A program made the translations under genes and the position numbers. This document shows positions 6,720 through 31,365 of a DNA stretch of 35,984 nt, piece by piece. Positions within the stretch are counted from its first letter, which is position 1, and every line of letters begins with the position of its first letter. The notes below the pieces were generated by a model that did no database searches, was not told the origin of the DNA, and worked only from the letters and a program-made list of their open reading frames with translations. Source of the DNA: an uncultured bacterium (GTDB lineage: Bacteria > Bacillota > Clostridia > Lachnospirales > Lachnospiraceae); assembly GCA_947177425.1 (NCBI GenBank), contig CAMWUN010000035.1, positions 1 through 35,984 of the forward strand, given 5' to 3'.

Positions 6720-9700
6720 TCATCCCAGAAATTCTCTCAATACGTTTATGAAGATATCCATATCAAGAGGTTTGGCGATATGGGCGCTCATTCCGTTCTT
6801 TAAGGCTGCTTCCTTATCCTCCTCCAGGGCGTTGGCTGTCATGGCGATAATTGGCAGATCCCTGACATCCTTCCTGGGCATGCTTCTGATGGCTCTGGTG
6901 GCCTCATAGCCGTTCATAATCGGCATCTGCACATCCATCAGAATCGCATCATAATAATATTCCTCCGCCTTTTCCATCATGGAAACGGCATCTGTCCCGT
7001 CCGGCGCGCTTTCCACAAGAAAACCTGATTCTGTCAGTATGACTTCCGCAATTTCACGGTTCAACTCAATATCCTCTACCAGAAGAATCCTCTTTCCGCT
7101 AAAGTCAGCCAGCGTCCAGGCCGCCGCTTCCTCCTCCTTGTCAAGCAGATTGTTGGCGGCAAGCAGGGCAGATTTCAAATCCGACATAAAGAGCGGTTTC
7201 GCACAGAAAGCAGTGACGCCCGCCTCCCTTGCTTCCTCCTCGATATCAGACCAGTCGTATGCTGTCAGTATAATGATGGGAGCCTCCTCCCCAACTGCGC
7301 TGCGGATTCTTCTTGCGGTTTCCACTCCGCTGACCTCCGGCATCTGCCAGTCAATAATATAGGTATGATAGGAATCCCCTTCATCGTATGCGATTTTTGC
7401 CCGGTATGCTGCCTCCCTGCCGGAAGTGGTCCACTCAGCGCGCATACCTATATGCTTGAGCATTTTGCTGACGCTGGCACATACGTTAAAGTCATCATCC
7501 ACTACCAGCGCGCGCAGTCCGTCCAGTTCCTTCAACTGCTCTGCATTCTTTTTAGTATCCTGAAGCTTCAGGGTAAATTCTACCGTAAATACGCTTCCTT
7601 TCCCCACTTCGCTTTCAACGGAAATTGTACCGTTCATCATTTCAACGATATTCCTGGTGATTGCCATGCCAAGCCCGGTTCCCTGAATACCTGACTGGGT
7701 GGCTGTTGATTCCCGCTCAAAAGGCTCAAAAATATGCTTTACAAACTCCTGCGACATGCCGATTCCGTTATCCTTAATGATGAAAACATAGTCGCCATAT
7801 CCGTGATGGAAAGTCGTTTTCTGCATAATCCTGAAAGAAATCGTACCTCCTGCCGGCGTATATTTTACCGCGTTGCTCAGCAGGTTAATAAACACCTGGT
7901 TCATCTTCAGCGCATCGGCTATAACATCTTCATTGACCACCTCAAACGTATCAATGAACAGTTCTAGCTGCTTCGCCTTTACCTGGGGCTGGATAATATT
8001 TACCAGATTATGCATCAGTTCAGAAATATTGCACTCCTGCTCCTTAATCTGCACCTTCCCGCTCTCAATCCGGCTCATATCAAGAATATCATTAATCAGG
8101 CTTAAAAGGTGGTTGCTGGAGGAAAGAACTTTCTGCAGGCAGTCTCTTACCTGGTCTTTATTGTCAATATGGCTGACCGCAATCGTCGCAAAACCGATAA
8201 TAGCATTCATAGGTGTACGGATATCATGGGACATATTGGAAAGGAAAGTAGTCTTCGCCCTGTTCGCATGTTGTGCCTGCATCAGCGCATCCTGCAGTGC
8301 CTGGGTCTGCTCCTTCTGCTTTCTGACACTCTCTGTAATTTCCTTTAACACAACCATTACCATAATATCTTTTGTGTCATTGTCCTGCGTCATGATAAAC
8401 GACTGCCGGACGCAAATCTGTACCCCTTCTGATTCCCATACCCAGTAATCAATATCTACCTCTGTACCTCCCTGTTCAAACCGTTCTTTCAGATTATCCA
8501 CGTTTACAACTGTCTGATACTCTTCCAGGGATTCACTCAAAACAAACTGCTTCCACTTATCAAAATATTCTGACGCCTTACATGCTGCTTCAAGCCCCAC
8601 CTTTTTGAGCAGGGATATCTGCTCCCCGTCTATCACCCGCACAACATCCTGCTCAATCAAATCCTGCGTCAGATTAAATTCAAAGGTACAAAAAGCATTG
8701 GCGGTAATTGCTATCCTGTACTGTCTTTCCTTGCGGTCTGCAAGGGACATTTCCGCCTGTATGCGCAGTTCCTTTTCCTTAACTTCCGTAATGTTCTGGC
8801 GGATATACAAAATCTTGCTGGCCCTGCCGTCTTTTCTCTCCAGGCATATCATGTTCATATGCTCCCATTCAGGCCGCCCCTTCCGCATAACATGGCACTC
8901 GATACGGAGGTCATTCTGCTGCGCCAAAGCATTGATAACCGCTTCCTTATCAACCACCTTTACAAATTCCTGACTCGCTTCGTCCTCTATCATAATGGAA
9001 CACCAGTGGGCCACCAGTTCCTGATATTTGCCGCTGTCTGCAATATTGCCCTCTTCCGGCTTGGTACCTGCAAGATAGTGATATGTGTCCGTCTCAAAAT
9101 CAATCATGGCAAAGCGTGAAAACAATGTATTGACGCCGTTTATAATATAGCCCATCTCCCGGTTTTCATGCTCTAATACTTTCTTTTGCCGTCCTGCCTT
9201 AAAAAGCAGTATCACAATATAAATGACAAACAGTCCAATCAGCATAATCTCCAACTGGATCCCAACCAGATTTTCATCCCTTATCATGGCCTGGGTAACA
9301 CTTTTGGGGAAAGTCTGCACAAGCACAAATTCATTGTCTGGCAGATAACGGACGCAGATATTATCTGTTTTGCTGTCGGAACTGCACACCAAAGCCTTTT
9401 CCCCGCCGTTTTCAAATACGTCCCTTACGCCAAGGGCCGTATTTTCATCGATAACACCGGAATTTACCAGGGAATCAACCAGATGCCCCTCATAATCTTG
9501 ATCGTTGGAACTTGCGATCACTCTCCCGTCGGCTGTGCACAAAAACACATCAGCCTGCTCCCCAAAATAGGTTGTGGAAAGCATTTCCTTCATGTATTCT
9601 TCCGTAAGATATACCCCTCGCAGCACGCCGATAATTTCGCCTTCAAAGCGCACAGGCGCATAAAAGCACACCATTATTTCGTCCAGGATATGGGGATCAA

Positions 9701-10109
9701 AAATAACGGATATGCCGCTCTCTCCTTTTATCCCGTTATGGTAAAAGTCACGGTCGGTTACATCCGCAGTCCGCCCGTCAGAAGCATGGTCAATGCCCTC
9801 CAGATCCGTAAACATCAGCGTGTCGAACCGGGAATTCTCTTCCATCTCATTCAGCATAGGGATTGTAACTTCCGGCTCAGCCAGCCCTTCCCCCACGAAA
9901 TATGTATGGTCTTTAATCGTATTAAGCGCATTATTCAGTTCCTCGTCAATCTGTACCGCCTTGAGCCGCGCTGAGTCCGCTGCATAATTTTTGTTCCGTT
10001 CTTCCATACGGCTGCTGTTCTGCATCGTATACCAGATAAACACGACAACAACTGCCGCCATAAGGCACAACGTGTAAATAACTTCCTGTAATGGTTTCTT
10101 TCTCTTCAT
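6720..10109 (-). CDS. hybrid sensor histidine kinase with two receiver domains
   Basis: The 1129-residue protein has a membrane helix near residues 12-28, an extracytoplasmic Cache-type sensor (about 35-275) and a second helix near 285-305. PAS-like regions (about 330-600) follow, then a HisKA domain with His628 in MSHDIRTPMNAIIGFA. The HATPase has an NAVKYTPAGG N-box and IFEPFERE and GTGLGM motifs. Receiver 1 starts near 865 (phospho-acceptor Asp920 in IIDWQMPE) and receiver 2 near 1006 (Asp1059 in LMDVQMPIMNG, Lys in AKPLD). No Hpt or output domain is present, so the phosphoryl group must pass to separate partners not seen next to it. The start at 10109 is preceded by AGAGGGG on the minus strand. 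The ligand is unknown; Cache domains often bind small organic molecules. Confidence 0.9.
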   Translation of the reverse strand: MKRKKPLQEVIYTLCLMAAVVVVFIWYTMQNSSRMEERNKNYAADSARLKAVQIDEELNNALNTIKDHTYFVGEGLAEPEVTIPMLNEMEENSRFDTLMFTDLEGIDHASDGRTADVTDRDFYHNGIKGESGISVIFDPHILDEIMVCFYAPVRFEGEIIGVLRGVYLTEEYMKEMLSTTYFGEQADVFLCTADGRVIASSNDQDYEGHLVDSLVNSGVIDENTALGVRDVFENGGEKALVCSSDSKTDNICVRYLPDNEFVLVQTFPKSVTQAMIRDENLVGIQLEIMLIGLFVIYIVILLFKAGRQKKVLEHENREMGYIINGVNTLFSRFAMIDFETDTYHYLAGTKPEEGNIADSGKYQELVAHWCSIMIEDEASQEFVKVVDKEAVINALAQQNDLRIECHVMRKGRPEWEHMNMICLERKDGRASKILYIRQNITEVKEKELRIQAEMSLADRKERQYRIAITANAFCTFEFNLTQDLIEQDVVRVIDGEQISLLKKVGLEAACKASEYFDKWKQFVLSESLEEYQTVVNVDNLKERFEQGGTEVDIDYWVWESEGVQICVRQSFIMTQDNDTKDIMVMVVLKEITESVRKQKEQTQALQDALMQAQHANRAKTTFLSNMSHDIRTPMNAIIGFATIAVSHIDNKDQVRDCLQKVLSSSNHLLSLINDILDMSRIESGKVQIKEQECNISELMHNLVNIIQPQVKAKQLELFIDTFEVVNEDVIADALKMNQVFINLLSNAVKYTPAGGTISFRIMQKTTFHHGYGDYVFIIKDNGIGMSQEFVKHIFEPFERESTATQSGIQGTGLGMAITRNIVEMMNGTISVESEVGKGSVFTVEFTLKLQDTKKNAEQLKELDGLRALVVDDDFNVCASVSKMLKHIGMRAEWTTSGREAAYRAKIAYDEGDSYHTYIIDWQMPEVSGVETARRIRSAVGEEAPIIILTAYDWSDIEEEAREAGVTAFCAKPLFMSDLKSALLAANNLLDKEEEAAAWTLADFSGKRILLVEDIELNREIAEVILTESGFLVESAPDGTDAVSMMEKAEEYYYDAILMDVQMPIMNGYEATRAIRSMPRKDVRDLPIIAMTANALEEDKEAALKNGMSAHIAKPLDMDIFINVLREFLG

Positions 10110-10454: not shown

Positions 10455-10631
10455 ATGCCTACGAACGAAAAGGAATTGAATGCAGCTTTGTTTGACCAGC
10501 TTACACTGGTTGAACGAATTGAGCGGAAAGCGGAAAGCGGAAATCTGGAGGAAGTTAAAGCAGAAATTGAATTTATTAAAAAAGAAATCCTTCGCAAACT
10601 TTACCAAAAGCCGCCGCTGGTCAATGAATAG
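10455..10631 (+). CDS. small 58-residue protein of unknown function
   Basis: The ATG is preceded by an exceptionally strong ribosome binding site, AAGGAGGTGA at 10441-10450, and by a TATAAT 43 bases upstream. The product is rich in Glu, Lys and Leu (LNAALFDQLTLVERIERK, then LEEVKAEIEFIKKEIL) and should form two amphipathic helices, perhaps a coiled coil or helical hairpin. It has no membrane segment, cysteines or signal peptide. Its size is like Spo0E-type peptides, but the SQELD-type motif of that family is absent, so I do not assign it. It is convergent with the GTPase-nuclease gene; the stop codons are 21 bases apart and lie in one hairpin. Confidence 0.7.
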   Translation: MPTNEKELNAALFDQLTLVERIERKAESGNLEEVKAEIEFIKKEILRKLYQKPPLVNE

Positions 10632-10658
10632 CACAGGCACACCATGTCTGTGCTATTC
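10626..10658. terminator. hairpin between convergent stop codons
   Basis: GAATAGCACAG (10626-10636) and CTGTGCTATTC (10648-10658) form a perfect 11-bp stem with an 11-base loop. It includes the stop codons of the 58-aa gene and of the GTPase gene. There is no T run on either side, so it may act as a weak terminator or as a 3'-end stabiliser; type assigned by position. Confidence 0.45.
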
Positions 10659-13463
10659 CTCCGTCCCCATGATATGTTCCTTTATCTTTTCCGCCGCCTG
10701 CCCGGAAAGCGCCTGCCCCAGGGAAGCTCTTTCTTTTGGGTGGCCGTTCCGGTATTCCTCCATCACTTTTTTTGCAGTCTGCTCTATTTCTTCTTTCAAT
10801 TCCCTTGAAGATATCAGCTTACACCCTGCCCCTACAATAATAATCTGCTCAAGACCGTCCGAGGTAGCCACAGTGACGTCATATTTACGGCTGTTTTCAT
10901 GGGCAAATTTCTCTATATACTGGTCAGCCGTCTCCGCTTCTTTGGTGTAAACCACATGGATATTGTGATAATCCAGCGTTTCCGTGGGATGTCCTGCAAG
11001 ACGGTAAGCATCAAAAACCGCTATCAGGCTGCATTGCTTTACCGCCTGGTAATTGCACAGAATATCAAGGAGCGCCCCTCTTGCACCGTCCAGATTTTCC
11101 TTTGCCAGTTCCTTTAATTCTTCCCATGCAAAAATTACATTGTATCCGTCCACAAGCAGATATTTTTCCTTTGGAGGTTCTGTGCGGTAGGTTCTGGTCT
11201 GGGACGGTGAAAATGAATCCCGTTCCTTCCCTCCGCGCCCCTTTCCCCAGCCGCTCCGGGTTCCCTCCCTGTTTTCTTTCCTGTTTGCGCCGGAAGTACG
11301 GCTGATAATGGCATCCACTTCTTCCGTCCAAATCCACTGCCCTTTTGTCAAATCTGCGCCTGCCTTTTGCCCTGCCCGCGCACCGCCCCGGATTCCGGCT
11401 GCTTTTCCTCCGGGATTCCAGTTTTCCTCCCATTCCTTCCAGCCGCAATCCTCCTGACGCCAGAGTTCCCTATCCTCTGATAAACAGCTTTCCAGATGCA
11501 TGTAATCGGGCACCCTGTCCCATTCCACGATAAAACCTGCGCCATGGGCACAGAATACAGAACTGGATGGATTCTCCACATCGCTTAACGGGTCATAACC
11601 GATTTCTTCCAGAACTTCTTCCGTATTATGGCAGGGAAAGTATCCTTTTAATGTGCAATAAAGCTGCCCTATGCCTTTGGTATAGGCTGTCACTTCCCTC
11701 TGGTAATCCTGCAAAAGCACCATGGGCGCTGCCCCTGCAAGGCAGGCCATACCACCGGCATTGTGTTCCAGCGTAAACTTTCCCTGCATCTTATCCAAAT
11801 CCGTCATGGCCCGTCCCACTGCGCCCTCCGGCACCATAAGACGGAATTCATAATAAGGTTCCAGCAGAATATTTTCCGCCTGCATCAGTCCCTGTCGTAA
11901 AGCCCGGTATACTGCCTGCCTGAAATCCCCGCCTTCCGTATGCTTCTGGTGGGCACGTCCTGATTTTAAAGTAATCTTCATATCTGTAATGGGCGCTCCT
12001 GCCAAAACCCCCAGATGCACCTTTTCCTCAAGATGGGTGAGAACCAGCCGCTGCCAGTTAAGGGCCAGTACATCTTCACTGCAGTCCGCCCCTATAACAA
12101 GACCGCTTCCTGCCTCTCCCGGCTCCAGCAGAAGATGCACCTCCGCATAATGCCGCAGGGGTTCGAAATGCCCCACCCCTTCTGCCGGCTCCGCAATTGT
12201 TTCCTTATAGACAATGCTTCCTGTGCCGAAGTCCACACAGACGCCGAACCGCTCCTCGATCAGATTCCTATACACTTCAATCTGCACCGGCCCCATAATC
12301 TGTGCTTTCAGTTCCATATTTTTTTCATCCCAGAAAATATGAAGCTGGGGTTCCTCCTCCTCAAGCTGTCTGAATTTTGGGAGCATAAGCACCGGATCAC
12401 AGCCCTCCGGCAACATAATGCGGTAATTAAGCACCGGAGACAGTTCCGGGTATATGGTTTCCTTCTCAAACCCCAGACCTTCCCCCGCCCATGTCCGGGA
12501 CAGGCCAGTGACTGCGCATATCTCTCCAGCCTCTACCTCCACAGGCGTGGTAAATTTATCCCCCGAATAAATACGTATCTGATTGACTTTTTCTTCCCAA
12601 GGCTCCCCATCCGGCTGCATATATCCTTTCCCCATACCTGAAAGAATTTCCCGGGTTCTTAAGGTTCCTCCTGTGATCTTCATATGGGTCAGCCGGCTTC
12701 CCTGGCTGTCCCGGGTAATCTTAAATATCCGGGCGCCAAACTGTACGGGGTATTCTTTGGGAGCTGTATATTCGTCAATCCCCGCTAAAAGTTCCGCCAC
12801 CCCTGTCAGCTTTAATGCGGAACCAAAAAAGCAGGGAAAGATTTTTCTTTCCCTAATCAGTCTTTGCATACTTGTTCTGGAAATTTCCCCGCTTTCCAGA
12901 AACTCATTTAATACCTCTTCCTCACTGACTGCCATGCTTTCATAGAATTCCTGCGACTTCTGTCCCGAAAAGTCCACACAGTACTCATTCAGCTTTTCTC
13001 TCAGTTCTGTAAGGATCGTCTCCCTGTGGGTATCCGGCTGATCCATTTTGTTGATGAACAAAAACACAGGTATCCGGTACCGTGCCAGCAGACGCCATAA
13101 AGTGAGCGTATGCCCCTGCACCCCGTCGCTTGCGCTTATCACCAGAACCGCCGCATCCAATACCTGAAGGGTGCGCTCCATTTCCGCTGCAAAATCCACA
13201 TGGCCAGGAGTATCCAGCAGGGTAATCAGAGTATCCTTCACCGAAAGAAGGGCCTGCTTGGAAAATATGGTAATACCCCTCTCCCTCTCCTGGCTGTAAG
13301 TGTCCAGAAAGGCATCTTTTTTATCCACCCTGCCCAGCTTACGGATACTTCCGCTTACATACAGCATCCCTTCTGATAAAGTTGTTTTCCCGGCATCTAC
13401 ATGGGCCAGCAGACCCACGCAAATATGTTTCTTTGGTTTCTTTTCTTCTGTCTGTCCGCCCAT
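10653..13463 (-). CDS. TetM-like translational GTPase fused to a C-terminal NYN endonuclease domain
   Basis: The 936-residue protein starts with an EF-G/TetM-type GTPase: G1 AHVDAGKTT (20-28), G2 RERGIT (60-65), G3 DTPGHVD (84-90), G4 NKMD (138-141), G5 GSAL (214-217). EF-G-like domains II-V follow to about 660, then a Gly/Arg/Lys-rich linker (about 670-765). From 768 a YacP/Rae1-type NYN domain begins, YLLVDGYNVIFAWEEL, with putative catalytic acids Asp772, Asp847 (ETADQYIE) and Asp869 (TSDG). In the domain IV region, RAHQKHTEGGDFRQAV stands where TetM has its YSPVST tip loop, so plain tetracycline protection is doubtful. The ribosome binding site GAGGAGGT lies in a long palindrome. Family knowledge: TetM acts in the ribosomal A site and Rae1 cleaves mRNA there. 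A ribosome rescue or quality-control role is inferred. Confidence 0.88.
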   Translation of the reverse strand: MGGQTEEKKPKKHICVGLLAHVDAGKTTLSEGMLYVSGSIRKLGRVDKKDAFLDTYSQERERGITIFSKQALLSVKDTLITLLDTPGHVDFAAEMERTLQVLDAAVLVISASDGVQGHTLTLWRLLARYRIPVFLFINKMDQPDTHRETILTELREKLNEYCVDFSGQKSQEFYESMAVSEEEVLNEFLESGEISRTSMQRLIRERKIFPCFFGSALKLTGVAELLAGIDEYTAPKEYPVQFGARIFKITRDSQGSRLTHMKITGGTLRTREILSGMGKGYMQPDGEPWEEKVNQIRIYSGDKFTTPVEVEAGEICAVTGLSRTWAGEGLGFEKETIYPELSPVLNYRIMLPEGCDPVLMLPKFRQLEEEEPQLHIFWDEKNMELKAQIMGPVQIEVYRNLIEERFGVCVDFGTGSIVYKETIAEPAEGVGHFEPLRHYAEVHLLLEPGEAGSGLVIGADCSEDVLALNWQRLVLTHLEEKVHLGVLAGAPITDMKITLKSGRAHQKHTEGGDFRQAVYRALRQGLMQAENILLEPYYEFRLMVPEGAVGRAMTDLDKMQGKFTLEHNAGGMACLAGAAPMVLLQDYQREVTAYTKGIGQLYCTLKGYFPCHNTEEVLEEIGYDPLSDVENPSSSVFCAHGAGFIVEWDRVPDYMHLESCLSEDRELWRQEDCGWKEWEENWNPGGKAAGIRGGARAGQKAGADLTKGQWIWTEEVDAIISRTSGANRKENREGTRSGWGKGRGGKERDSFSPSQTRTYRTEPPKEKYLLVDGYNVIFAWEELKELAKENLDGARGALLDILCNYQAVKQCSLIAVFDAYRLAGHPTETLDYHNIHVVYTKEAETADQYIEKFAHENSRKYDVTVATSDGLEQIIIVGAGCKLISSRELKEEIEQTAKKVMEEYRNGHPKERASLGQALSGQAAEKIKEHIMGTEE

Positions 13464-13469
13464 AAAAAT

Positions 13470-13516
13470 ACCTCCTCTCGTGAAAATATACTTTTTAGTA
13501 TATCACAAGAGGAGGT
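13470..13516 (-). promoter_or_regulatory. long palindrome enclosing the ribosome binding site of the GTPase-nuclease gene
   Basis: On the minus strand, ACCTCCTCTTGTGATATACT (13516-13497) can pair with the sequence running 13492-13470 that ends in GAGAGGAGGT. This gives about 20 pairs with one G-T wobble position, a two-base bulge and a four-base loop. The right arm is the gene's own Shine-Dalgarno, so in any message that includes both arms the ribosome binding site is closed. The stem is followed by ATTTTTATG, i.e. a U run merging into the start codon, so terminator activity is also possible. Confidence 0.75.
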
Positions 13517-13525
13517 AATCGTCGA
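13497..13525 (-). promoter_or_regulatory. promoter of the GTPase-nuclease gene, overlapping the palindrome
   Basis: TCGACG (13525-13520, minus strand) and TATACT (13502-13497) are spaced by 17 bases. RNA from here would start near 13490, after the left arm of the palindrome, leaving the ribosome binding site free. The palindrome could instead be the operator of a repressor. Confidence 0.5.
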
Positions 13526-17536: not shown

Positions 17537-19363
17537 ATGAATTCTGCTGCCCCGGCCATCCGCAGCCAGCTTTGGCATATCAGACAATTGTTTCTGAACC
17601 GGAGTCTGGCCTCCAAATTCAAAATTATCTACATAATGACCATACTTCTTTGTATGCTCTGTAACGTTACGGTAATCCGTTTTTTTTATAAAAATGAAGT
17701 AAGGGAGACCATAAGCGCACTGGCTTCCCAGACACTGGAAACCATTTCCCAGAACGCGGACAATACCATCCGTATCATATCAAAGAATTCCACCTATCTG
17801 CTGGGAAGTTCGGATATCCAGAATTATCTTACGCGGGATATCTACGGCCAGAACAACACAAGACTGTCCCGGAACCTGCGCAATACCCTTTATCTCACGC
17901 TGGAATCCATGCCTGCAGCACATTCCATTGTAATCATTGACGAAAACGGATATCTGGAAAGTGCGGCCCGGTATACCCATCCCCGGTGTATCCTCTCCTC
18001 CCCGGTGGAGGCAGACTGGTATGAGGAAGTCCATTCCCTTCAGGGCGCGCCGGTTTTCCTGCTGAACGGGGGCGGATATTTTGCGCCTGAAAAGGACAAT
18101 AATTACCTTTCCCTGATCCGTCTCATCAACAGCACGGAAGATGCCAGACCTTTAGGTTATATGATTATAAACATCCCTCTGTCTGAACTGTTTTCCGTCC
18201 CTAACGTGCGGGGAAATAATTATTCAGACATCTGCGTTTATTCCGGCTCCTCCCCGGTTCTTGATTTCGACAACGGGGAACTGGCTTCGCATTTCACCTG
18301 GCAGACTGCCCGGGAATTATCCCAGGCGGATAAAAAGGAACTGGTTGTTGGTAACGAGCGTTACCTGCTCCTTGGCCTTGACAATTCCCCTTTGGGGCTC
18401 CAGTATTACAGCGCCACCAGATTTGCTTCCTACGCCAATGAGTACAAACCTTTTCTTCTGATATGCCTGTTTACGGTTTTCATCAGCACCAGTCTGTTTC
18501 TGCTGATTGCCCTGTGCACCAGCCGTTTTGTCACGGATCCTCTGTACCGTCTGAGCGCTGCCATGAAAAAAACCGAGGAGGGAGATTTCCATCCGGCCTG
18601 CGTTACTACCCACAAAGATGAAATCGGACAGCTGCAGGACGCTTACAACGAAATGGTGGACAAAATCCAAAACCTGCTGACTGCCAAAATCTCTGAACAG
18701 AAGCGTCTGAGAAACGCAGAACTTAAGATTCTGCAGGAGCAGATCAAACCCCATTTTCTGTACAACAGCTTAAGCGGCATTGCTTATCTTATTACCGCCA
18801 GACAGAACGAAACGGCCTGCGGACTGGTCATTTCCCTGTCCGAATATTACCGGGAAAGCTTAAGCAAGGGAAGCGAAGCAATTCCCCTTTCTGCGGAAAT
18901 CAATATTGTAAAAAATTATCTGAAACTGCAGAAAATGCGCTTCCCAAATATATTTGATGACCAGTACGAAATCGCCCCCAAGACTCTGGACATTACGATT
19001 CCCCGGCTGGTCTTACAGCCTCTGGTGGAAAATTCCCTCTACCACGGGATACTTCCAACAGGAGATTACGGAACAATTTTCATCCGCTCTTATCTAAAAG
19101 ATAATCTGCTGATGATTCATGTAAAGGATGACGGTGTGGGAATGGAACCGGAGCAGCTTTCCGAAATATTAAAGGACTCTCTGGAATCCAACCAGAAAAG
19201 TTTCGGCCTTCGGGGCACTGTGGAGCGCCTCCAGATTTTTTACGACAATAAGAATATTTATGAAATTATCAGCACCCCTGGGGAAGGAACGGAAATTATC
19301 TTCTCCCTGCCTCTGGAACATGCAAAAAAACAACAGGAGGAATCAGATGGAACGCCAGAATGA
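17537..19363 (+). CDS. YesM-like sensor histidine kinase
   Basis: The 608-residue protein has a membrane helix near 30-50, an extracytoplasmic sensor (about 55-295) and a second helix near 300-322. A HAMP linker (TDPLYRLSAAMKKTEEGDF) and a His_kinase domain with His406 in LQEQIKPHFLYNSL follow. The HATPase domain has LVLQPLVENSLYHGI and DDGVGM motifs. This is the class that senses sugars or sugar-bound proteins outside the cell and pairs with YesN-type AraC response regulators. The next gene overlaps it by 17 bases and encodes exactly such a regulator. Because the pair faces a solute-binding protein, permeases and xylosidase operon, its likely signal is a xylo-oligosaccharide. Confidence 0.9.
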   Translation: MNSAAPAIRSQLWHIRQLFLNRSLASKFKIIYIMTILLCMLCNVTVIRFFYKNEVRETISALASQTLETISQNADNTIRIISKNSTYLLGSSDIQNYLTRDIYGQNNTRLSRNLRNTLYLTLESMPAAHSIVIIDENGYLESAARYTHPRCILSSPVEADWYEEVHSLQGAPVFLLNGGGYFAPEKDNNYLSLIRLINSTEDARPLGYMIINIPLSELFSVPNVRGNNYSDICVYSGSSPVLDFDNGELASHFTWQTARELSQADKKELVVGNERYLLLGLDNSPLGLQYYSATRFASYANEYKPFLLICLFTVFISTSLFLLIALCTSRFVTDPLYRLSAAMKKTEEGDFHPACVTTHKDEIGQLQDAYNEMVDKIQNLLTAKISEQKRLRNAELKILQEQIKPHFLYNSLSGIAYLITARQNETACGLVISLSEYYRESLSKGSEAIPLSAEINIVKNYLKLQKMRFPNIFDDQYEIAPKTLDITIPRLVLQPLVENSLYHGILPTGDYGTIFIRSYLKDNLLMIHVKDDGVGMEPEQLSEILKDSLESNQKSFGLRGTVERLQIFYDNKNIYEIISTPGEGTEIIFSLPLEHAKKQQEESDGTPE

Positions 19364-20960
19364 CGCTAACGGCAAACTGAAAGTAATGATTGTGGACGAT
19401 GAGGAATTGTCCCGGAAATTTTTCATCAGCAGCCTGGACTGGGAAGACATGGGGCTGGAAATAACAGCCGAATCCGCCTCCGGCTTAGAGGCCCTGACAC
19501 TTTTGGAGGAACATACCCCGGACATTATTTTTACAGACATCAAAATGCCCTATATGGACGGTCTGGAACTGGCACGGTTAATTGCAGACAAATTCCCCCA
19601 TATCAAAATTGTCATTTTAACGGCATTTAAAGATTTTGATTATGCACAGCAGAGTATCCATATCGGTGTGTCCCATTTCCTTTTGAAGCCAGTCAGCCGC
19701 CCGGAACTGGAAGCCACTGTGCTGAAACTGAAAGAACAGATCGCCGACGAACGCAGGCAATGGTCCGAACTAGGTTATCTGAAAAAAATCCTGCTGGATA
19801 ATTATTCTTTTCTCCGGGAAAAATTCCTGCTGGAACTTTTGGAGGACCAGATGCCCGCGCCTGCCTCCCAGAGCCAGTTATCCTATTATTTTCCACAGGG
19901 AGTTCCCTCTTATATTCAGGCAACGCTTCTGGAAGCTTTTTCCCCCCGCTTCTTAGGGCTGTCCGAGGAAGAGCGGCTTTTGCAGGATATGAAGAACCTC
20001 GAATTTGTAAAAAACTGTCTGAAAAATGACAGCAGAATAGATGTTTTTGCGGACAGGAGACACCGCCTGATACTTCTGTCCTATTCTCCTTTGGTAAAAA
20101 TGGTCACATTATGCGAACAGTTGCAGTGTTCTATCCACCAGATAGCAGGACTTGACATTTACTTCGGCATCGGCACTGCCTATGAAGAATTCCGGAAAAT
20201 CAGCCTTTCTTATCAGGAAGCCCTGGAATCTCTGAAATTCAGCCGCTATATGCCCAGCCAGCCCATCACCATCTACCAGAATGACATCCACGTACAGAAC
20301 TCCAAGTGGCAGCCCAGACAGGATGCCATTGAGGATGTGAAATTTTATATCAAGGCTGGGCTTTCCGAAGAACTGAACCAGATTCTGCCCTCTCTGTTTC
20401 TGGACAGCAATGAAAATATGATCAACGCAGACCAGGCCAGACTTCTGTCCATGACTCTGTTGTCTGCCGCAGTCAATGTGGTAAACGACATCGGCATTGA
20501 CCTGCAGGAACTTTTCGAGCAGGGGACCGGCTCCTTCCTGTCTATCCTTTCCGAATCCACAGGGAACGACCTCCGCTGTCAGACCATTGATTACCTGAAT
20601 AAGCTGACCCTTTCCATCGCTTCCTACCGCACCAATAAAAGCAAATCTGTTTTGTGGGATATTCTGCAATATATACAAAAAGAAATGAAAAATCCGGAGC
20701 TGTCCCTTACCGCTGTTGCCGAGCAGTTTCATATGAACGACAGCTATTTGAGCCGGACATTTAAGAAAGAACTGGGATTTAGCTTTTCCAAGTATCTGAA
20801 CCGGCTGCGGATGGAACAGGCCATCCAGCTTATCGCCAGCACAGACATGAAAGCCTATCAGATTGCCGAAGCAGTAGGCATACCGGACGCCTACTACTTC
20901 AGCAACTGCTTTAAGAAATATACAGGAAAATCCATCCGGGATTACAAAAAAGGCTTATAA
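19347..20960 (+). CDS. YesN-like response regulator with AraC DNA-binding domain
   Basis: The 537-residue protein has a receiver domain (MIVDDEELSRKFF, phospho-acceptor Asp64 in IFTDIKMPYMDG, Lys in HFLLKPVS). A long middle region (about 130-430) of the YesN type follows, then a C-terminal AraC HTH pair (VAEQFHMNDSYLSRTFKKEL and IAEAVGIPDAYYFSNCFKKY). The start at 19347 is chosen because GGAGG (19336-19340) is six bases upstream; the gene overlaps the kinase by 17 bases, implying translational coupling. Its stop codon shares the palindrome TTATAA with the stop codon of the convergent xylosidase. It probably activates the minus-strand transport operon whose promoter is at 26047-26074. Confidence 0.9.
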   Translation: MERQNDANGKLKVMIVDDEELSRKFFISSLDWEDMGLEITAESASGLEALTLLEEHTPDIIFTDIKMPYMDGLELARLIADKFPHIKIVILTAFKDFDYAQQSIHIGVSHFLLKPVSRPELEATVLKLKEQIADERRQWSELGYLKKILLDNYSFLREKFLLELLEDQMPAPASQSQLSYYFPQGVPSYIQATLLEAFSPRFLGLSEEERLLQDMKNLEFVKNCLKNDSRIDVFADRRHRLILLSYSPLVKMVTLCEQLQCSIHQIAGLDIYFGIGTAYEEFRKISLSYQEALESLKFSRYMPSQPITIYQNDIHVQNSKWQPRQDAIEDVKFYIKAGLSEELNQILPSLFLDSNENMINADQARLLSMTLLSAAVNVVNDIGIDLQELFEQGTGSFLSILSESTGNDLRCQTIDYLNKLTLSIASYRTNKSKSVLWDILQYIQKEMKNPELSLTAVAEQFHMNDSYLSRTFKKELGFSFSKYLNRLRMEQAIQLIASTDMKAYQIAEAVGIPDAYYFSNCFKKYTGKSIRDYKKGL

Positions 20961-22571
20961 TTCCCGATATATAAAATAGTCAAAATCCGCAGGGATACGT
21001 GTGCCAAGGCCATCCACGCTTACCATCCCTACAAAAGCCCCGGTAAATGCCGCGTCATACACTGCCTTAATGTACTCATCGGAGAGTCGGGCTGAGTCAA
21101 AAGTATAGGGTACCCGTATCCAGTTTTCGTTGTCAAAGGAATACAGGTACTGGTAGGAGATTCCCCGGACTTCCGCCCGGAAGTATACATAATCCGCCGA
21201 AGCCGGCACGGGGACAGGTTCCTCCTGATAAACGCTGAAAGTTTTACCCAGATCTGTACTTACCACGTCTATAACACGGCCGTATTTCTCATTCCAGGTC
21301 ATTTGGATGCATGACCAGTTCTGGGTGTTATAGTAACAGGTCAGTCCGGCCCACTGCTGTATATTCCGGGGACGGTAATCCATCTTCACTTCTGTGTCAA
21401 ACTGAAAGCTCTGCCAGCGCCTTGCTATATGGGCCTGGGTAAAGGTGGAAGCCAGAGACTGCCTGCCGTAAAGCCGCAAGTGTCCCGGCCTGTCAGTCAG
21501 CGACAAAGTATTTTCTGAAAGAGGAATCCGCAGGCTCTGGAAGTTAATATTTAAGGATGCTGTGTCAAAATCATCTTTTACAGGACAGGTTTCCTCCCAT
21601 TTATGCTCCTTTACGCCCAAAGGCGCATCCACTTCCTTCATCCCCATATGACCGCCCACAATATGGGGCCATTTTTCCTCATCCCAGACTACCTTCTGGA
21701 TAGCGCTTTCCCTGCCTAAGGGACACCAGCCTCTGGGGTCAACCGCCGATTCGTTCTCATGATGCAGGGGCCTTCCCATCAGATGGGCAAAATACCATTC
21801 CCCTTCCGGCGTATCCACCAGCGAGCCATGCCCCGCTTTCTGGATAGGATGGAAAGGAACGTCAATAGTGGTTAGAAAAGGCTCCCCCGGCTGTGTCTCA
21901 AATTCATCTTTAAGCGACCTGGCCCGTGCCACCCGCTCCTGATGGGCATACACTGTCCCTCCCTGAGCCACAAACAGATAATAATATCCGTGAAGCTTAT
22001 ACAGATGAGGGCCTTCCGTAAACTTTTCCTCCGTTCCTTTATAAATAATCCACGGTTCTCCGATTAGTTTTTTCTCCTGTTCGGAATACTCTGTACACAT
22101 AATTCCATAAAAAGGATGATGGAAGCTTCTGGGATCCCAATACTGGTTTACCAGATATTTCCGCCCGTCCTCATCATGGAAAAGGGAAGCGTCAAATCCC
22201 GCAGTATTCAGTTCCACCGGATCCGACCATGGCCCCATAATATTTTCCGCCGTAATCAGATAATTAATGCAGTCCTTGAAAGAACCGTCCGTCACCTTCA
22301 CATCCGTATAAATCAGATAAAAATGCCCGTCATGCCAGGACAGATCCGGCGCCCAGATTCCCCCGGAATCCGGGTTCCCTGTCATGTCCAGCAGTCTTTT
22401 TTCATTCAAAGGATGGGCAATCAGCTTCCAGTTCACCAGATCCCTGGATTGATGAATCTGCACCCCCGGCCACCACTCAAAGGTGGATGTTGCAATATAA
22501 TACATATCCCCTACCCTGACAATACTCGGATCCGGGTTAAAACCTTTCAATATGGGATTTACAATTTTCAT
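20955..22571 (-). CDS. xynB: GH43 beta-xylosidase/alpha-L-arabinofuranosidase
   Basis: The 538-residue protein is a two-domain GH43 enzyme. It opens with NPILKGFNPDPSIV, where Asp14 is the expected general base. FDASLF gives Asp127 (pKa modulator) and TEGPHLY gives Glu186 (general acid). From memory, these positions and the length of 538 are those of the Selenomonas ruminantium beta-xylosidase SXA. The C-terminal domain (about 330-538) contains LTDRPGHLRLYGRQSL and RRWQSFQFDTEV, typical of the beta-sandwich that closes the active site. No signal peptide is present, so it acts on imported xylo-oligosaccharides in the cytoplasm. The ATG at 22571 follows GGAGGTGCA; an in-frame start 13 codons upstream has no site. 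It is the last gene of the transport operon. Confidence 0.93.
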   Translation of the reverse strand: MKIVNPILKGFNPDPSIVRVGDMYYIATSTFEWWPGVQIHQSRDLVNWKLIAHPLNEKRLLDMTGNPDSGGIWAPDLSWHDGHFYLIYTDVKVTDGSFKDCINYLITAENIMGPWSDPVELNTAGFDASLFHDEDGRKYLVNQYWDPRSFHHPFYGIMCTEYSEQEKKLIGEPWIIYKGTEEKFTEGPHLYKLHGYYYLFVAQGGTVYAHQERVARARSLKDEFETQPGEPFLTTIDVPFHPIQKAGHGSLVDTPEGEWYFAHLMGRPLHHENESAVDPRGWCPLGRESAIQKVVWDEEKWPHIVGGHMGMKEVDAPLGVKEHKWEETCPVKDDFDTASLNINFQSLRIPLSENTLSLTDRPGHLRLYGRQSLASTFTQAHIARRWQSFQFDTEVKMDYRPRNIQQWAGLTCYYNTQNWSCIQMTWNEKYGRVIDVVSTDLGKTFSVYQEEPVPVPASADYVYFRAEVRGISYQYLYSFDNENWIRVPYTFDSARLSDEYIKAVYDAAFTGAFVGMVSVDGLGTRIPADFDYFIYREL

Positions 22572-22599
22572 ACTTGCACCTCCATTTCTATCCCCACAC

Positions 22600-22621
22600 A
22601 AACGTCCCACGAAAGACGTTT
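22600..22621. other. small hairpin in the permease-xylosidase gap
   Basis: AAACGTC (22600-22606) pairs with GACGTTT (22615-22621) across eight bases, and TTT follows on the plus strand. On the sense (minus) strand of the operon no U run follows. It could be a weak terminator for antisense RNA or an mRNA structure in the 132-base gap; confidence is low. Confidence 0.3.
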
Positions 22622-22703
22622 TTTCTCTGCGGCATCCCCTTTCAAACCTGCACCTGCCGCGTATGTACAGGCTGTATAAATTATCCCGTCCGCAAAAGTC
22701 AGT

Positions 22704-23534
22704 TTACCCTTTAACCGCTCCAGACACCATTCCGCTCTGCACCTGTTTGCTGAACAACAGATAAATCACAATCGTCGGCACTGTGGCAACCATAAGTCCC
22801 GCTCCCATGGTTCCCCAGTCTGTGGTATATTTCCCCACCATCTGCATGATTCCTACCGTCAGTGTGCGGTATTTTTCAGAGTTGATAAATGTAATGGCAA
22901 ACATCATTTCATTCCATGTAGAAAGAAATGTAAATACAGAAATCGTAGCCAGCGCCGGTTTTACAAGGGGCAGCATGATATAAAAAAATGTCCTGTAAAT
23001 ACTGCACCCGTCCAGAAAGGCCGACTCTTCCAACTCCCTGGGCAGTGTCTGGAAAAATCCTATCATAAAGAAAATCGCCATAGGCAGTGCAAAAGCAATA
23101 TAGGGAATGATAATGGCCTGATAAGTATCCAGCATTTTCAGATTTTTAAGCATAATAAATACCGGAAGAAGCACTGCGTGGAGGGGAATCATCAGTCCCA
23201 GCGAAAAGAATGTCTTTACGAATCCGTTGATTTTCACTGTCATCCTTGCAATGGCATAGGAAACCATACATGCCAGCACACCGGATATCAATATTACCAC
23301 CAGCGTTACGAAAATACTGTTCAGCAGATAATTTCCCACATTGGCATTGAACAGGGCATTTTCATAATTTGACCACTTAAACTGCCGGGGCAGCCCCATA
23401 ACATTTCCGCCGTAAATCTCATTATTATCCTTCAATGAAAAGAAGAAAAGAAATACCAGCGGATAGAGCTGTATCACTGCAAATGCAATCAGGACAACCT
23501 GCAGTAAAATGTCAGGTATATGTATTTTTTTCAT
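22704..23534 (-). CDS. sugar ABC transporter permease (MalG type)
   Basis: The 276-residue protein has six membrane helices and the EAA-loop LEESAFLDGCSIYRTFFYIMLP that docks onto the ATPase. The N-terminus lacks a long periplasmic loop, which is the MalG-type half of the carbohydrate uptake (CUT1) family. The start at 23534 is preceded by AGGAGGG on the minus strand. The gene begins 10 bases after the stop of the other permease, so the two are co-translated. With its partner it forms the membrane channel for the substrate delivered by the lipoprotein at 24613-26007, presumably a xylo-oligosaccharide given the downstream xylosidase. Confidence 0.92.
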   Translation of the reverse strand: MKKIHIPDILLQVVLIAFAVIQLYPLVFLFFFSLKDNNEIYGGNVMGLPRQFKWSNYENALFNANVGNYLLNSIFVTLVVILISGVLACMVSYAIARMTVKINGFVKTFFSLGLMIPLHAVLLPVFIMLKNLKMLDTYQAIIIPYIAFALPMAIFFMIGFFQTLPRELEESAFLDGCSIYRTFFYIMLPLVKPALATISVFTFLSTWNEMMFAITFINSEKYRTLTVGIMQMVGKYTTDWGTMGAGLMVATVPTIVIYLLFSKQVQSGMVSGAVKG

Positions 23535-23544
23535 AAGCGCCCTC

Positions 23545-24420
23545 CTAATAAGTAATATTGTCTACTTTAAAGAATTTTTCTATAAGGAAATAAAACAGCA
23601 GACATTCCGCCACAATGAACACGGCAATGGCACTGCCGCTTCCATATTCCATTCTTGTAAAAATCGTGGTGTACATAAGGGTACTGGGAACCTCGCTGGC
23701 ATGGAGCGGGCCGCCTTTTGTGAGAACCCAGATCAAGTCAAAGAGTTTCAGTGAGCCGATAACCGCAAAGGTTAAGCTGACCTTCATAGTGCTCTTAATT
23801 AGGGGAATGGTAATGCGGAAAGCCATCTGTCTTTCATTCGCCCCGTCAATCTGGGCCGCCTCATATATTTCCGCAGGCACACCCTTGATTCCAGTGTAGA
23901 GAATCAGCATATGATACCCGATATACTGCCAGATGATAGGGAAAAACGCCGCCCCTAAAACCAGCTTCGTATTTCCCAGCCAGTCCTGCCCTTTTATGCC
24001 GAACAAACCAAAGAAAGCATTCAGCGCACCGTAATCTGCATTATATATCTTCAAAAACAACTGCCCTATGACCACCGTTGAAAGCAATACCGGAATGAAA
24101 TAAACAGTCCGGTAAATGCCCTCCCCTTTAATGTTCCTTGAAAGTACAATTGCAAAAAACATGGCGGGTATCAACTGCCCCACAATAGATGCAACTGCCA
24201 GAATCAGGGAATTTTTTACTGAACTCATAAATGCATTATTTTTCGTAAGCGCAATAAAATTATCAATCCCCACAAATACCTTTTCCCCTATCCCGTTCCA
24301 TTCCAGGGTGCTATAATATCCTGAAATGATGATGGGAATGAAAGCCATAATGAAATAAACCACAAATGCCGGAAATACAAATATGAAATATGCCTTTTTA
24401 TTTCCCAGAATTTTGTCCAT
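23545..24420 (-). CDS. sugar ABC transporter permease (MalF type)
   Basis: The 291-residue protein has six membrane helices. After the first helix there is the conserved YSTLEWNG-type segment of CUT1 permeases, and the EAA-loop is EIYEAAQIDGANERQMAFRI followed by TIPLIKST. This is the partner of the permease encoded next. The start at 24420 has GGAGGAG just upstream on the minus strand. It lies 192 bases after the solute-binding protein gene, with a stem-loop between them, an arrangement that often gives more binding protein than permease. Confidence 0.92.
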   Translation of the reverse strand: MDKILGNKKAYFIFVFPAFVVYFIMAFIPIIISGYYSTLEWNGIGEKVFVGIDNFIALTKNNAFMSSVKNSLILAVASIVGQLIPAMFFAIVLSRNIKGEGIYRTVYFIPVLLSTVVIGQLFLKIYNADYGALNAFFGLFGIKGQDWLGNTKLVLGAAFFPIIWQYIGYHMLILYTGIKGVPAEIYEAAQIDGANERQMAFRITIPLIKSTMKVSLTFAVIGSLKLFDLIWVLTKGGPLHASEVPSTLMYTTIFTRMEYGSGSAIAVFIVAECLLFYFLIEKFFKVDNITY

Positions 24421-24518
24421 ACTCTCCTCCTCTCCAAACTTACACCCGCAGCCTTCTCCGGGCCACTCGCCAAATACATAATGGCAATCCTCATATTCTG
24501 TAACGTTTCGTCATACCA

Positions 24519-24558
24519 GAAAAGGTAATCCGAAGGGTTGTCAGCGAATTACCTTTTC
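24519..24558 (-). other. stem-loop between binding-protein and permease genes
   Basis: GAAAAGGTAAT (24519-24529) and ATTACCTTTTC (24548-24558) are perfect 11-bp arms around 18 bases. On the sense strand no strong U run follows. This position, right after a highly expressed solute-binding protein gene, fits a partial terminator or 3'-end stabilising hairpin. Confidence 0.55.
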
Positions 24559-24612
24559 CATTTTCAAAATCTGCTCATTTACTATCTACTTATTCAATAT
24601 CCTATTCAGCAT

Positions 24613-26007
24613 CTACTCGTTCAGCGTCTGCAGGTTTGCACAAAATTCTTCAGGTGTTTCATTTCCTGCAATGAGATTTGCGATTTCATTCATGAGCGTA
24701 TCTGCTGCGGATCCTCCTGTCAGGGAATCCAGCCAGTATACATACCCTGTTGCATCCTTGGTAAGATCTGCAATCTCCTGTGACAGACGGTTCAGTTCGG
24801 AAGTATCGCCCATATCAGCTTCCCATGCAGGCATACCTGAACCAGCCAGATACTGATCTTTGGACATCTTTTCACAAATATACTGTGCCACTGCCGCAGC
24901 TTCCGCAGGATACTCTGTGTTGCTGCTTACCAGGAAAGTTTCTCCTGAACCGCCGTGAAACTCGTCAGCCGTGCCTTTTCCGCCTTCAATTACAGGGAAT
25001 TTTATAACGGAAATTTTACCTTTTACTGCTGCATCGTCTGCCTCGCAGTCACCGTTAAGCCAGCTTCCCATAAACATCATGGCTGCCCTTCCCTGCTTAA
25101 ATGCTGCCACTGCATCATCCTCGGAAGTCCCCATTGCACTGTCTCCAAAACCGCCTCTTGCCGCCAGTTCCTGCACCAGCTTCGCAGCTTCCACCAATTC
25201 AGGTGTGTTATAGGATGCCTCCCCGTTAAGGGCTGCATTAAAGGCTTCTGCGCCTGCCATACGGATTGCATGAATACCAAAAATCATAAGACCCGGCCAT
25301 AAATCTCTTTCACCTAAGGAAATGGGCGTAATTCCTGCCGCTTTGAAAGCGTCTACTGCAGCCAGAAATTCGTCATAAGTTTCCGGTACCTTTACATTAT
25401 TCTGCTCAAACAGTTCTGTATTTACATACAAAGATGCCACTGCCACACTGTACGGATACCCGTAAATTTCCCCGCCAAATGTAAAGTTATCCAATGTTCC
25501 TCCAAGTATTTTTCCCTTCATTTCATCGGTCATATACTCATCCAGGGGAAGCACCAGTCCGGCCTCCACATAGGGCGCCATTGTTCCAGCACCCCAGTTA
25601 AAAAATACGTCGGGGAGTTCATTTCCTGCCATTGCCGTACGAAGCTTTACCTTATAAGATTCTGATTCCGTCCCCTCATGTACCACATTCACATTTGGCA
25701 TATCCGTCTTGATAGATTCCAGCGCATTGTAAAACGCTACATAATTTCCATCCGTGGAATTGGGATCAGAAAACTGTGACCAAAGGGTAATTGTAACCTG
25801 TTCCCCACTCTGGGCATCCGCCTGGGCACCTGCTTCCGCATCTGCCTCACTTCCCGATGATTCTGATTCCTGCGCCGGAGCTGCTTCCTGTGCCGGTTCT
25901 GATGAAGGACTGCCGCTGTCCTTACTGCCGCCGCATCCTGCCAGCGAAACAACCATCGCCGCCGACATCAATAGTCCCACTGCTTTTTTCAGTGCTGTTC
26001 TTTTCAT
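24613..26007 (-). CDS. extracellular solute-binding lipoprotein of the sugar ABC transporter
   Basis: The 464-residue protein has a signal peptide with lipobox LAGC (Cys25). A Ser/Ala/Glu/Gln-rich tether (about 32-70) follows, then a family 1 solute-binding domain (TITLWSQFSDPNSTDGNYVAF; ELPDVFFNWGAGTMAPYVE; AAFKQGRAAMMFMGSWLNG). It should capture an oligosaccharide outside the cell and hand it to the two permeases. The start at 26007 is preceded by GAAGGGAGAAG. It is the first gene of the operon, and its promoter is at 26047-26074. The transporter's ATPase is not encoded in this window, as is usual for Firmicutes CUT1 systems served by a shared MsmK-type ATPase. Confidence 0.93.
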   Translation of the reverse strand: MKRTALKKAVGLLMSAAMVVSLAGCGGSKDSGSPSSEPAQEAAPAQESESSGSEADAEAGAQADAQSGEQVTITLWSQFSDPNSTDGNYVAFYNALESIKTDMPNVNVVHEGTESESYKVKLRTAMAGNELPDVFFNWGAGTMAPYVEAGLVLPLDEYMTDEMKGKILGGTLDNFTFGGEIYGYPYSVAVASLYVNTELFEQNNVKVPETYDEFLAAVDAFKAAGITPISLGERDLWPGLMIFGIHAIRMAGAEAFNAALNGEASYNTPELVEAAKLVQELAARGGFGDSAMGTSEDDAVAAFKQGRAAMMFMGSWLNGDCEADDAAVKGKISVIKFPVIEGGKGTADEFHGGSGETFLVSSNTEYPAEAAAVAQYICEKMSKDQYLAGSGMPAWEADMGDTSELNRLSQEIADLTKDATGYVYWLDSLTGGSAADTLMNEIANLIAGNETPEEFCANLQTLNE

Positions 26008-31222: not shown

Positions 31223-31247
31223 ACAACAGACAACCAAATAGCAATAA

Positions 31248-31358
31248 TGTCTTCAGGGCAGGGTGAAATTCCCGATCGGCGGTGACAGTCCGCGGGCGCG
31301 AGAGCGCGGGGTCTGGTGAAATTCCAGAACCGACGGTATAGTCCGGATTAAAGAAGGT
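31248..31358 (+). ncRNA. FMN riboswitch (RFN element)
   Basis: The conserved blocks of the RFN element are easy to see: CTTCAGGGCAGGGTGAAATT then CCCGATCGGCGGTGACAGTC, then CCGCGGGCGCGAGAGCGCGG as a variable arm. These are followed by GTCTGGTGAAATTCCAGAACC, split at 31311-31330, and CGACGGTATAGTCCGGAT with AAAGAAGG closing the P1 helix. It binds FMN and shuts off the downstream gene. The target is ribU at 31558. There are about 100 bases between the aptamer and the final terminator, which is longer than needed. Confidence 0.95.
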
Positions 31359-31365
31359 GTGTTGA

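Follow-up and report, generated by a model that had tools for sequence, protein, structure and literature searches.

A translational GTPase fused to a Rae1-type nuclease that seems to replace stand-alone YacP in Lachnospiraceae

Introduction

What is the task of a protein that carries a translational GTPase and a nuclease in one polypeptide chain? The question is raised by a gene at 10653..13463 on the minus strand of contig CAMWUN010000035.1 (assembly GCA_947177425.1) from an uncultured bacterium; the whole stretch of 35,984 nucleotides that was analysed is referred to as the window. The gene begins with an ATG at 13463 and encodes 936 amino acids, of which residues 12-660 form an EF-G/Tet-like translational GTPase part, followed by a linker and a nuclease domain of the type found in YacP, also called Rae1. 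The original prediction gave this open reading frame with the same ends and was silent on the strand. It suggested that the protein could recognise a stalled ribosome with its GTPase part and cut the message with its tail.

According to the accessible parts of two papers, Rae1 is able to attack mRNA in the ribosomal A site (PMC12320835, PMC6613710), and one of them calls the list of nucleases cutting mRNA on stuck ribosomes incomplete (PMC12320835). The reference lists in the accessible parts of PMC6613710 and PMC10100781 date the Rae1 publication to 2017. The Tet-NYN fusion has been in print since 2015, when it was described from "ten species of clostridiales" (Atkinson, BMC Genomics 16:78; PMC4342817), and the accessible part of that paper reads it as RNase-based antibiotic resistance and makes no link to Rae1. 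This was the one paper that turned up combining NYN with Tet or EF-G, and a functional study of the fusion was not found in the literature within search reach. The architecture is already known; what is new here is the apparent replacement of YacP/Rae1 and the separate clade formed by the GTPase.

We consider it rather probable that the fusion is a ribosome-directed mRNA endonuclease which took over the job of Rae1 and has a GTPase built in. What the analysis shows is the domain make-up, the invariant acidic residues, the separate GTPase clade, and the exclusion of YacP combined with loss of yacP.

Domain architecture and nuclease active site

A Pfam search of the 936-residue protein gave four domains above cut-off, all encoded on the minus strand. 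These are the G domain GTP_EFTU (residues 11-233, 12765..13433; 1.7e-52), EF-G domain IV (EFG_IV, residues 416-529, 11877..12218, placed by Pfam and by the alignment of 45 fusions), EF-G domain V (EFG_C, residues 533-613, 11625..11867) and NYN_YacP (PF05991, residues 769-929, 10677..11159; 5.9e-52, 176.4 bits against a cut-off of 24.6). Pfam gives no match for domains II and III, yet both align along TetO and EF-G. All G motifs are present, AHVDAGKT at residue 20, RGITI at 62, DTPGH at 84 including H88, NKMD at 138 and GSAL at 214, and they are nearly invariant among 45 fusions. With these motifs and its EF-G-like domains the protein qualifies as an EF-G-family translational GTPase. The set of 45 includes the window and was obtained from 47 fusion loci (46 and the window) by excluding the broken loci L080 and L176. 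A second alignment, A1, holds 80 of 81 possible rows including the window, L217 being left out. Here 79 relatives align to the fusion over its full length with 57-85% identity and, judged from these relatives, the architecture is not a product of chance. The mean majority among the 45 fusions is highest in domain IV (0.76), followed by the G domain (0.65), the NYN domain (0.62) and the linker (0.48).

The NYN part matches solely the YacP entries 5mq8 and 5mq9 when compared with PDB sequences at E<=0.1 (E 3e-23). Four aspartates fall in the columns of D7, D53, D81 and D104 of Bacillus subtilis YacP, namely Asp772 (11148..11150), Asp818 (11010..11012), Asp847 (10923..10925) and Asp869 (10857..10859), all on the minus strand. 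They are invariant in 45/45 fusions from many families and in 80/80 rows of A1. In a comparison of 75 fused NYNs, where some genomes are counted twice, with stand-alone YacPs from outside Lachnospirales, the two groups share 26 positions with a conservation of at least 90%, while three positions conserved in the stand-alone proteins are changed or loosened in the fused NYNs. The GTPase motifs, the tip loop RAHQKHTEGG (at 503) and Asp772, Asp847 and Asp869 were all located where the original prediction had placed them, and its assignment of the tail to the Rae1/YacP type agrees with the PDB matches and the shared positions; Asp818 is added here as a fourth, equally invariant acid. Homologues that have lost the catalytic acids, which it had named as evidence against its proposal, were sought and none was found in either alignment.

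An AlphaFold2 (AF2) model built from the 80-row alignment has a mean predicted local distance difference test score (pLDDT) of 78.1 and a predicted template modelling score (pTM) of 0.61, the EF-G-like and NYN parts being predicted mostly with good confidence. The top Foldseek matches of the model are EF-G chains, aligned over their whole length with a best E of 2e-49.

Distribution of the fusion

The window belongs to Lachnospiraceae, as its named relatives place it, and samples of 120 genomes from this family and 291 from the class were classed by their PF05991 matches. In the family 108 genomes have such a match: 97 in a frame of at least 500 amino acids, two in broken fusions (G095 and G042, taken as fusions interrupted by a contig end or a frame break) and nine in stand-alone proteins. 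The fusion is thus found in 99 of 120 family genomes and stand-alone YacP in nine, while NYN_YacP is absent in 12. In the class NYN_YacP occurs in 189 of 291 genomes. Here 106 fusions were counted, 99 by way of the GTPase frame (nine of which lie beyond the PF05991 rows listed) and seven broken or at a contig edge (G342, G250, G299, G258, G333, G170 and G339); G250 was counted as a fusion at a contig edge though its NYN match is missing. The remaining 84 genomes with PF05991 make up the stand-alone set, 28 of them classed without frame length. The two samples have two genomes in common, which leaves 203 distinct fusion genomes.

A sample of the phylum has NYN_YacP in 155 of 299 genomes, and at least 12 fusions lie outside the class (three in family f81, five in f132, two in f144, and one each in f85 and f129). 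The fusion is usually single-copy, one genome (G252) having two fusion genes, and it is the single NYN_YacP match in the genome of the window. Among the best 80 of 531 relatives in a scan of named genomes, the nearest is Lachnospiraceae bacterium 1XD21-87 (85% identical), and the genera Parablautia, Kineothrix, Eisenbergiella, Roseburia, Anaerostipes, Acetivibrio, Ruminiclostridium and Desulfosporosinus are represented.

Replacement of stand-alone YacP

In none of the 203 fusion genomes does a stand-alone YacP clearly accompany the fusion. One fragment, at a contig edge in the family genome G039 (5% contamination), is ambiguous as a second YacP. Three class genomes that seemed to have both (G255, G320 and G360) were rejected as doubles; the extra match is a 21-bit partial match in another protein, below the cut-off. 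Fisher's exact test for the exclusion, which is not corrected for phylogeny, gives p 6e-17 with these three doubtful doubles and 5e-21 without them. The two forms alternate within the genera g154 and g149 and within the families f1, f24, f25, f29 and f129.

Stand-alone yacP usually has a fixed place in the genome. Among 20 stand-alone loci an rlmB-like gene lies near yacP in 16 and a sigH-like gene in 15; the neighbour names rlmB, mrnC and sigH are those we take from the B. subtilis gene order. The old place of yacP was viewed with an RlmB probe in 18 genomes, 13 with the fusion and five with stand-alone YacP. In three of the latter (G054, G178 and G377) yacP lies between rlmB and sigH and in two (G059 and G361) elsewhere; the operon place is a usual but not a defining feature of YacP. 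In nine of the 13 fusion genomes sigH comes after rlmB and the intervening yacP is missing. Three more (G046, G088 and the window's own genome) have rlmB with no yacP after it, sigH not being in the visible stretch; in the window's genome this rlmB is on another contig, and the fusion does not occupy the canonical place between rlmB and sigH.

The remaining fusion genome, G144, carries a remnant of yacP between rlmB and sigH, with many stops and frame breaks (L299, about 2243-2715). Its genus-mate G178 has an intact yacP and no fusion. Genus g154 (G144, G178, G255, G320 and G360) thus includes intact yacP without the fusion, a remnant with the fusion, and no trace with the fusion. In g149, G377 has yacP while G139 and G173 have the fusion. 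Judged by these gene contents, the fusion and stand-alone YacP exclude each other, and the fusion seems to have taken the place of YacP. We regard this exclusion, together with the loss or decay of yacP at its old place, as the strongest evidence that the fusion does the job of YacP.

The job itself might be another one. An older prediction for NYN domains, by Anantharaman and Aravind in 2006 as cited in the accessible part of Atkinson (2015; PMC4342817), is maturation of rRNA or tRNA, and the GTPase would then be a ribosome-assembly factor. Rae1 is the YacP that has been characterised, and its target, as far as the accessible parts of the papers tell, is mRNA in the A site (PMC12320835, PMC6613710); moreover, domain IV, which bears the tip, is the most conserved domain of the fusion, as expected for a factor working at the decoding site. 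We therefore hold the maturation reading to be very unlikely, even if the canonical neighbours of yacP, presumably rlmB and mrnC as in B. subtilis, are genes of rRNA modification and maturation.

The reverse course of events, in which fission of the fusion gave rise to the stand-alone YacPs of Lachnospirales, was considered since a first NYN tree, made with the 75 fused NYNs, nested these proteins among the fused ones. It was rejected. A single clade of fused NYNs is not rejected by the approximately unbiased test (p-AU 0.82; 25 of 121 rows, same-genome copies and the contig-edge pieces L012 and L054, left out), and seven of ten Lachnospirales stand-alone yacP genes follow rlmB in the canonical operon. 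As one clade is not rejected, the nuclease was perhaps added to the GTPase once.

The GTPase half forms its own subfamily

By sequence the nearest solved relatives of the GTPase part are TetO and TetM, and its best NCBIfam match is tet_protect. This agrees with the proposal in the accessible part of Atkinson (2015; PMC4342817) that the fusion protects against tetracycline or other ribosome-directed drugs through its RNase activity. The scores tell otherwise. The window protein reaches 384.7 bits, about half of the tet_protect cut-off of 775, and four unfused kin score 393-442, whereas a classical Tet control (L167) passes with 832 and also passes the M/W model (1247 against 1100). With the curated EF-G model the fusion scores 257.8 against a cut-off of 659.4.

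The tip of domain IV is also different. Tip loop I, GHFEPLRHYAEVH, covers residues 431-443 (12135..12173, minus strand) and tip loop III, RAHQKHTEGG, residues 503-512 (11928..11957, minus strand). The latter is part of a KHTxGGDF motif found in 43 of 45 fusions and in 20 of 20 unfused GTPases from Clostridia (as KHTEGGDF in 38 and 12, respectively), and in none of the nine Tet-labelled, seven intermediate and four EF-G proteins compared. The SPVSTP loop III, family-defining for Tet according to the accessible part of Atkinson (2015; PMC4342817), is absent from the fusion, which has KHTEGGDF in its place. Eight of the nine Tet-labelled proteins have SP[VA]STP, and the ninth (L173) has HTHP. The replaced tip loop pointed out in the original prediction is thus real, conserved and unlike that of Tet proteins.

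Of the family's 99 fusion genomes, 13 also encode proteins of Tet length with 30-32% identity; the tip was checked in five of these 13. This coexistence and the non-Tet tip make drug displacement unlikely as the main job, just as had been predicted. Since the fusion is in addition usually single-copy and spread through the family, we find it most unlikely that drug protection explains it.

Trees of the GTPases were made with FastTree and treekit. In the treekit tree, where 20 of the 45 fusions were omitted for speed and the program flagged long branches and uneven letter composition, the fusions and the unfused GTPases form one clade with a support of 100, the fusions have 98 (both values asterisked) and the unfused proteins 81. 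The corresponding FastTree values are 0.998, 0.70 and 0.865. Three unfused GTPases were excluded, L134 (truncated), L154 (with an insertion) and L155 (split), and L127, L129, L130 and L131 are the same genes as L177-L180. By the tests made, on sequence, the GTPase is a separate subfamily related to the Tet group of ribosomal protection proteins and not a member of it.

The unfused KHTxGGDF proteins are encoded at L141-L153 and L177-L180. Some other Tet-like GTPases (L161-L164, L166, L173 and L135) are 30-34% identical and belong neither to the classical Tet proteins nor to the fusion subfamily; the tip is HTHP in L162, L163, L166, L173 and L135 and differs in L161 and L164.

An extension past domain V (residues 608-660, 11484..11642, minus strand), with the pattern YxxCHN...VFC..G...W...YMH, is common to the fusion and the unfused GTPases. 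Within it (residues 611-656, 11496-11633 of the window), C611 and C638 never vary in A1, and H612 and H656 hardly do. These four residues could, from their conservation, form a metal site.

The unfused GTPase and the linker

The unfused form of the GTPase bears on how closely the two halves work together. In the family it occurs in five of the nine genomes with stand-alone YacP only and in none of the 12 without YacP (5, 0, 4, 12; p 0.006). Among class genomes without the fusion, 17 have the unfused GTPase, ten of these with stand-alone YacP and seven with no PF05991 match (in one of the seven, G355, the GTPase lies in two broken frames), while the 168 without it have YacP in 74 and none in 94. 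A strict dependence of the GTPase on YacP was considered and is unsupported class-wide (p 0.31). Probably, therefore, the GTPase has its own task at the ribosome, and the nuclease is an addition to it.

In its loosest form this would mean that the GTPase is a general ribosome factor, for rescue, recycling or A-site clearing, and that the NYN domain rides along uncoupled. The 20 unfused proteins, which group together (81) and share tip and extension with the fusions, are in line with such a tether, as are the seven class genomes without a PF05991 match and a linker that is disordered and variable. The fusions lie on one side of a branch (98, asterisked) and many families have retained the fused form, which speaks for a closer relation.

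The linker itself, residues 666-764 (11172..11468, minus strand), had been described as basic and rich in glycine and arginine. In the window it is mildly basic (21 K+R, 17 D+E and 16 G in 106 residues), and across the 45 fusions glycine varies from 1 to 17 and length, taken as the columns between window residues 664 and 769, from 62 to 109, neither being conserved. AF2 gives residues 666-761 a pLDDT below 50, and this stretch is predicted to be disordered. The description had missed a short conserved motif, EEVDAIISRTSGANRK, at residues 714-729 (11277..11324, minus strand). Its majority pattern is EE[ILV][DE]xI[LFI]x[RK]T[YF], mostly about 50 residues upstream of DGYN, and the core is present in 114 of 125 linkers against 52 of 2460 shuffled ones (2.1%). 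A helix is predicted at the motif (713-724) with low confidence. Either the ribosome or the fusion protein itself may be the docking partner of the motif, which is more than a passive tether needs; we consider an uncoupled nuclease unlikely.

A possible mechanism

Genomes with the fusion lack the usual independent nuclease, and for this reason the fusion protein is probably directed to ribosomes and cleaves the mRNA that they carry. We infer that it binds ribosomes, that mRNA is the substrate, and that the GTPase acts first and then the nuclease. EF-G-like factors put their domain IV into the A site. As a single A site has no room for both domain IV and the NYN domain, these would have to take turns or act on neighbouring ribosomes. 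The GTPase module would dock in the factor-binding site and probe the A site with the tip of domain IV, and after GTP hydrolysis it would leave. The tethered NYN domain, being nearby at a high local concentration, could then enter the A site or act on a neighbouring ribosome, and would cut the message as Rae1 alone does in B. subtilis. About 70-80 Å separate domain V from the decoding centre, a gap that a linker of at least 62 flexible residues should span.

Several points weigh against a ribosome-directed nuclease that took over from Rae1. The hand-over has to be assumed, as the A site does not hold both domains together. The AF2 model has no confident domain arrangement (pTM 0.61), and it superposes poorly on whole EF-G chains (template modelling scores 0.31 and 0.43, root-mean-square deviation 22.5 for the best match), so its arrangement of domains is untrustworthy. 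The co-occurrence of the unfused GTPase and YacP is not significant class-wide (10/7/74/94, p 0.31). More commonly, stand-alone YacP occurs with no such GTPase in the genome (74 of the 84 stand-alone class genomes), and the seven class genomes with the GTPase and no PF05991 match indicate that the GTPase has some use without the nuclease. The lack of a phylogenetic correction in the exclusion test belongs here as well.

A stricter form, that GTP times the cut, can be put forward tentatively, as a possibility we doubt. Here the GTPase would sense a ribosome with an empty A site or a collided ribosome, hydrolyse GTP, pull domain IV back and hand the site over to the tethered NYN domain, which would cut the codon and open the ribosome to rescue. 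In a subset of genomes, the promoter driving expression would be part of a hairpin by which read-through transcripts are silenced. If the GTPase does time the cut, this would be a new coupling of a translation factor to mRNA decay, and the GTP-timed protein would amount to a bacterial equivalent, in a single chain, of quality control by a factor plus a nuclease, replacing Rae1 in most sampled genomes of the family. The findings bear on how many bacteria cut mRNA on stuck ribosomes and on the way in which Rae1 reaches the A site. Proteins that similarity has assigned to Tet, as in Atkinson (2015), may be housekeeping enzymes of mRNA decay and not resistance genes.

Upstream region and gene neighbourhood

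A palindrome lies upstream of the fusion gene (13469..13517, minus strand), its 5' side holding a promoter-like -10 and its 3' arm the Shine-Dalgarno sequence. The promoter-like site, TCGACG-17-TATACT with TG before the -10 (13497..13525, minus strand), is a consensus match only, and seven such sites were found in the region where 5.2 are expected. Folded as RNA, the palindrome has -29.6 kcal/mol and a z of -6.1, and its 5' arm, with up to two mismatches allowed, occurs once in the window's genome. Among 124 fusion loci, 14 have the Shine-Dalgarno sequence paired at z < -2, and the median z over all loci is -0.2; a palindrome that pairs it is a feature of a subset of fusion loci. Palindromes are also found upstream in L208, L213, L215, L218, L234, L237 and L243 and further in L249, L267, L268, L084, L085 and L089, in two sequence types with pairing kept.

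In an alignment of 16 palindrome rows 22 cells are changed on both sides against 0-7 in slid controls, a covariation that is overstated as the rows were picked for pairing. L250, which does not fit the hairpin, is included in these counts. Paired cells and the covariation score are above all 500 shuffles, while pairs changed on both sides (76/500) and pair types (283/500) are not. If the promoter does lie within the hairpin, the Shine-Dalgarno sequence of read-through RNA would be hidden, and expression of the nuclease would be kept under tight control.

A second hairpin, with 14-nucleotide arms and no T run after it, lies at the stop codon (10626..10658, minus strand). No Rfam match was found at the fusion gene. 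Elsewhere in the window there is a flavin mononucleotide (FMN) riboswitch (31245-31362, 103.9 bits) upstream of the substrate component of an energy-coupling factor (ECF) transporter (31558-32205).

The gene adjoining the fusion (6720-10109, minus strand) encodes a hybrid histidine kinase of 1129 amino acids with a Cache domain and two receiver stretches. The stretch 17537-26007 contains a GH43 beta-xylosidase beside what, judged from translations, appear to be two sugar ATP-binding cassette (ABC) permeases and a binding protein, as well as a sensor kinase and an AraC-type response regulator, and it looks like a locus for xylan use. An operon partner of the fusion was looked for and discarded, the commonest neighbour being present in only 19 of 126 loci, and so was an anti-phage defence system, PADLOC giving 0 families.

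Comparison with known systems

Rae1/YacP of B. subtilis (5mq8, 5mq9) shares the NYN domain and all four acids with the fusion. The stand-alone YacPs examined are mostly of 168-216 amino acids and mostly encoded in the rlmB-sigH operon, whereas the fusion carries a GTPase and has its own gene outside this operon. TetM and TetO are similar in their EF-G-like domains and C-terminal extension; the fusion differs by an identity of about 29%, another tip, half the curated score and the added nuclease. EF-G has the same fold, and a histidine of its tip (GSYHxVDSS) aligns with H505, but the tip is otherwise unlike that of the fusion, which is far below the EF-G cut-off. The unfused KHTxGGDF GTPases of Clostridia belong to the same subfamily, with the same tip and extension and 42-49% identity, and differ in being encoded by a separate gene without linker or NYN domain. 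The Tet-NYN proteins in the accessible part of Atkinson (2015; PMC4342817) have the same architecture, come from Clostridiales and were suspected of RNase activity. There they were filed under Tet, whereas here the fusion is found class-wide and beyond, in a separate clade and apparently in the place of YacP/Rae1.

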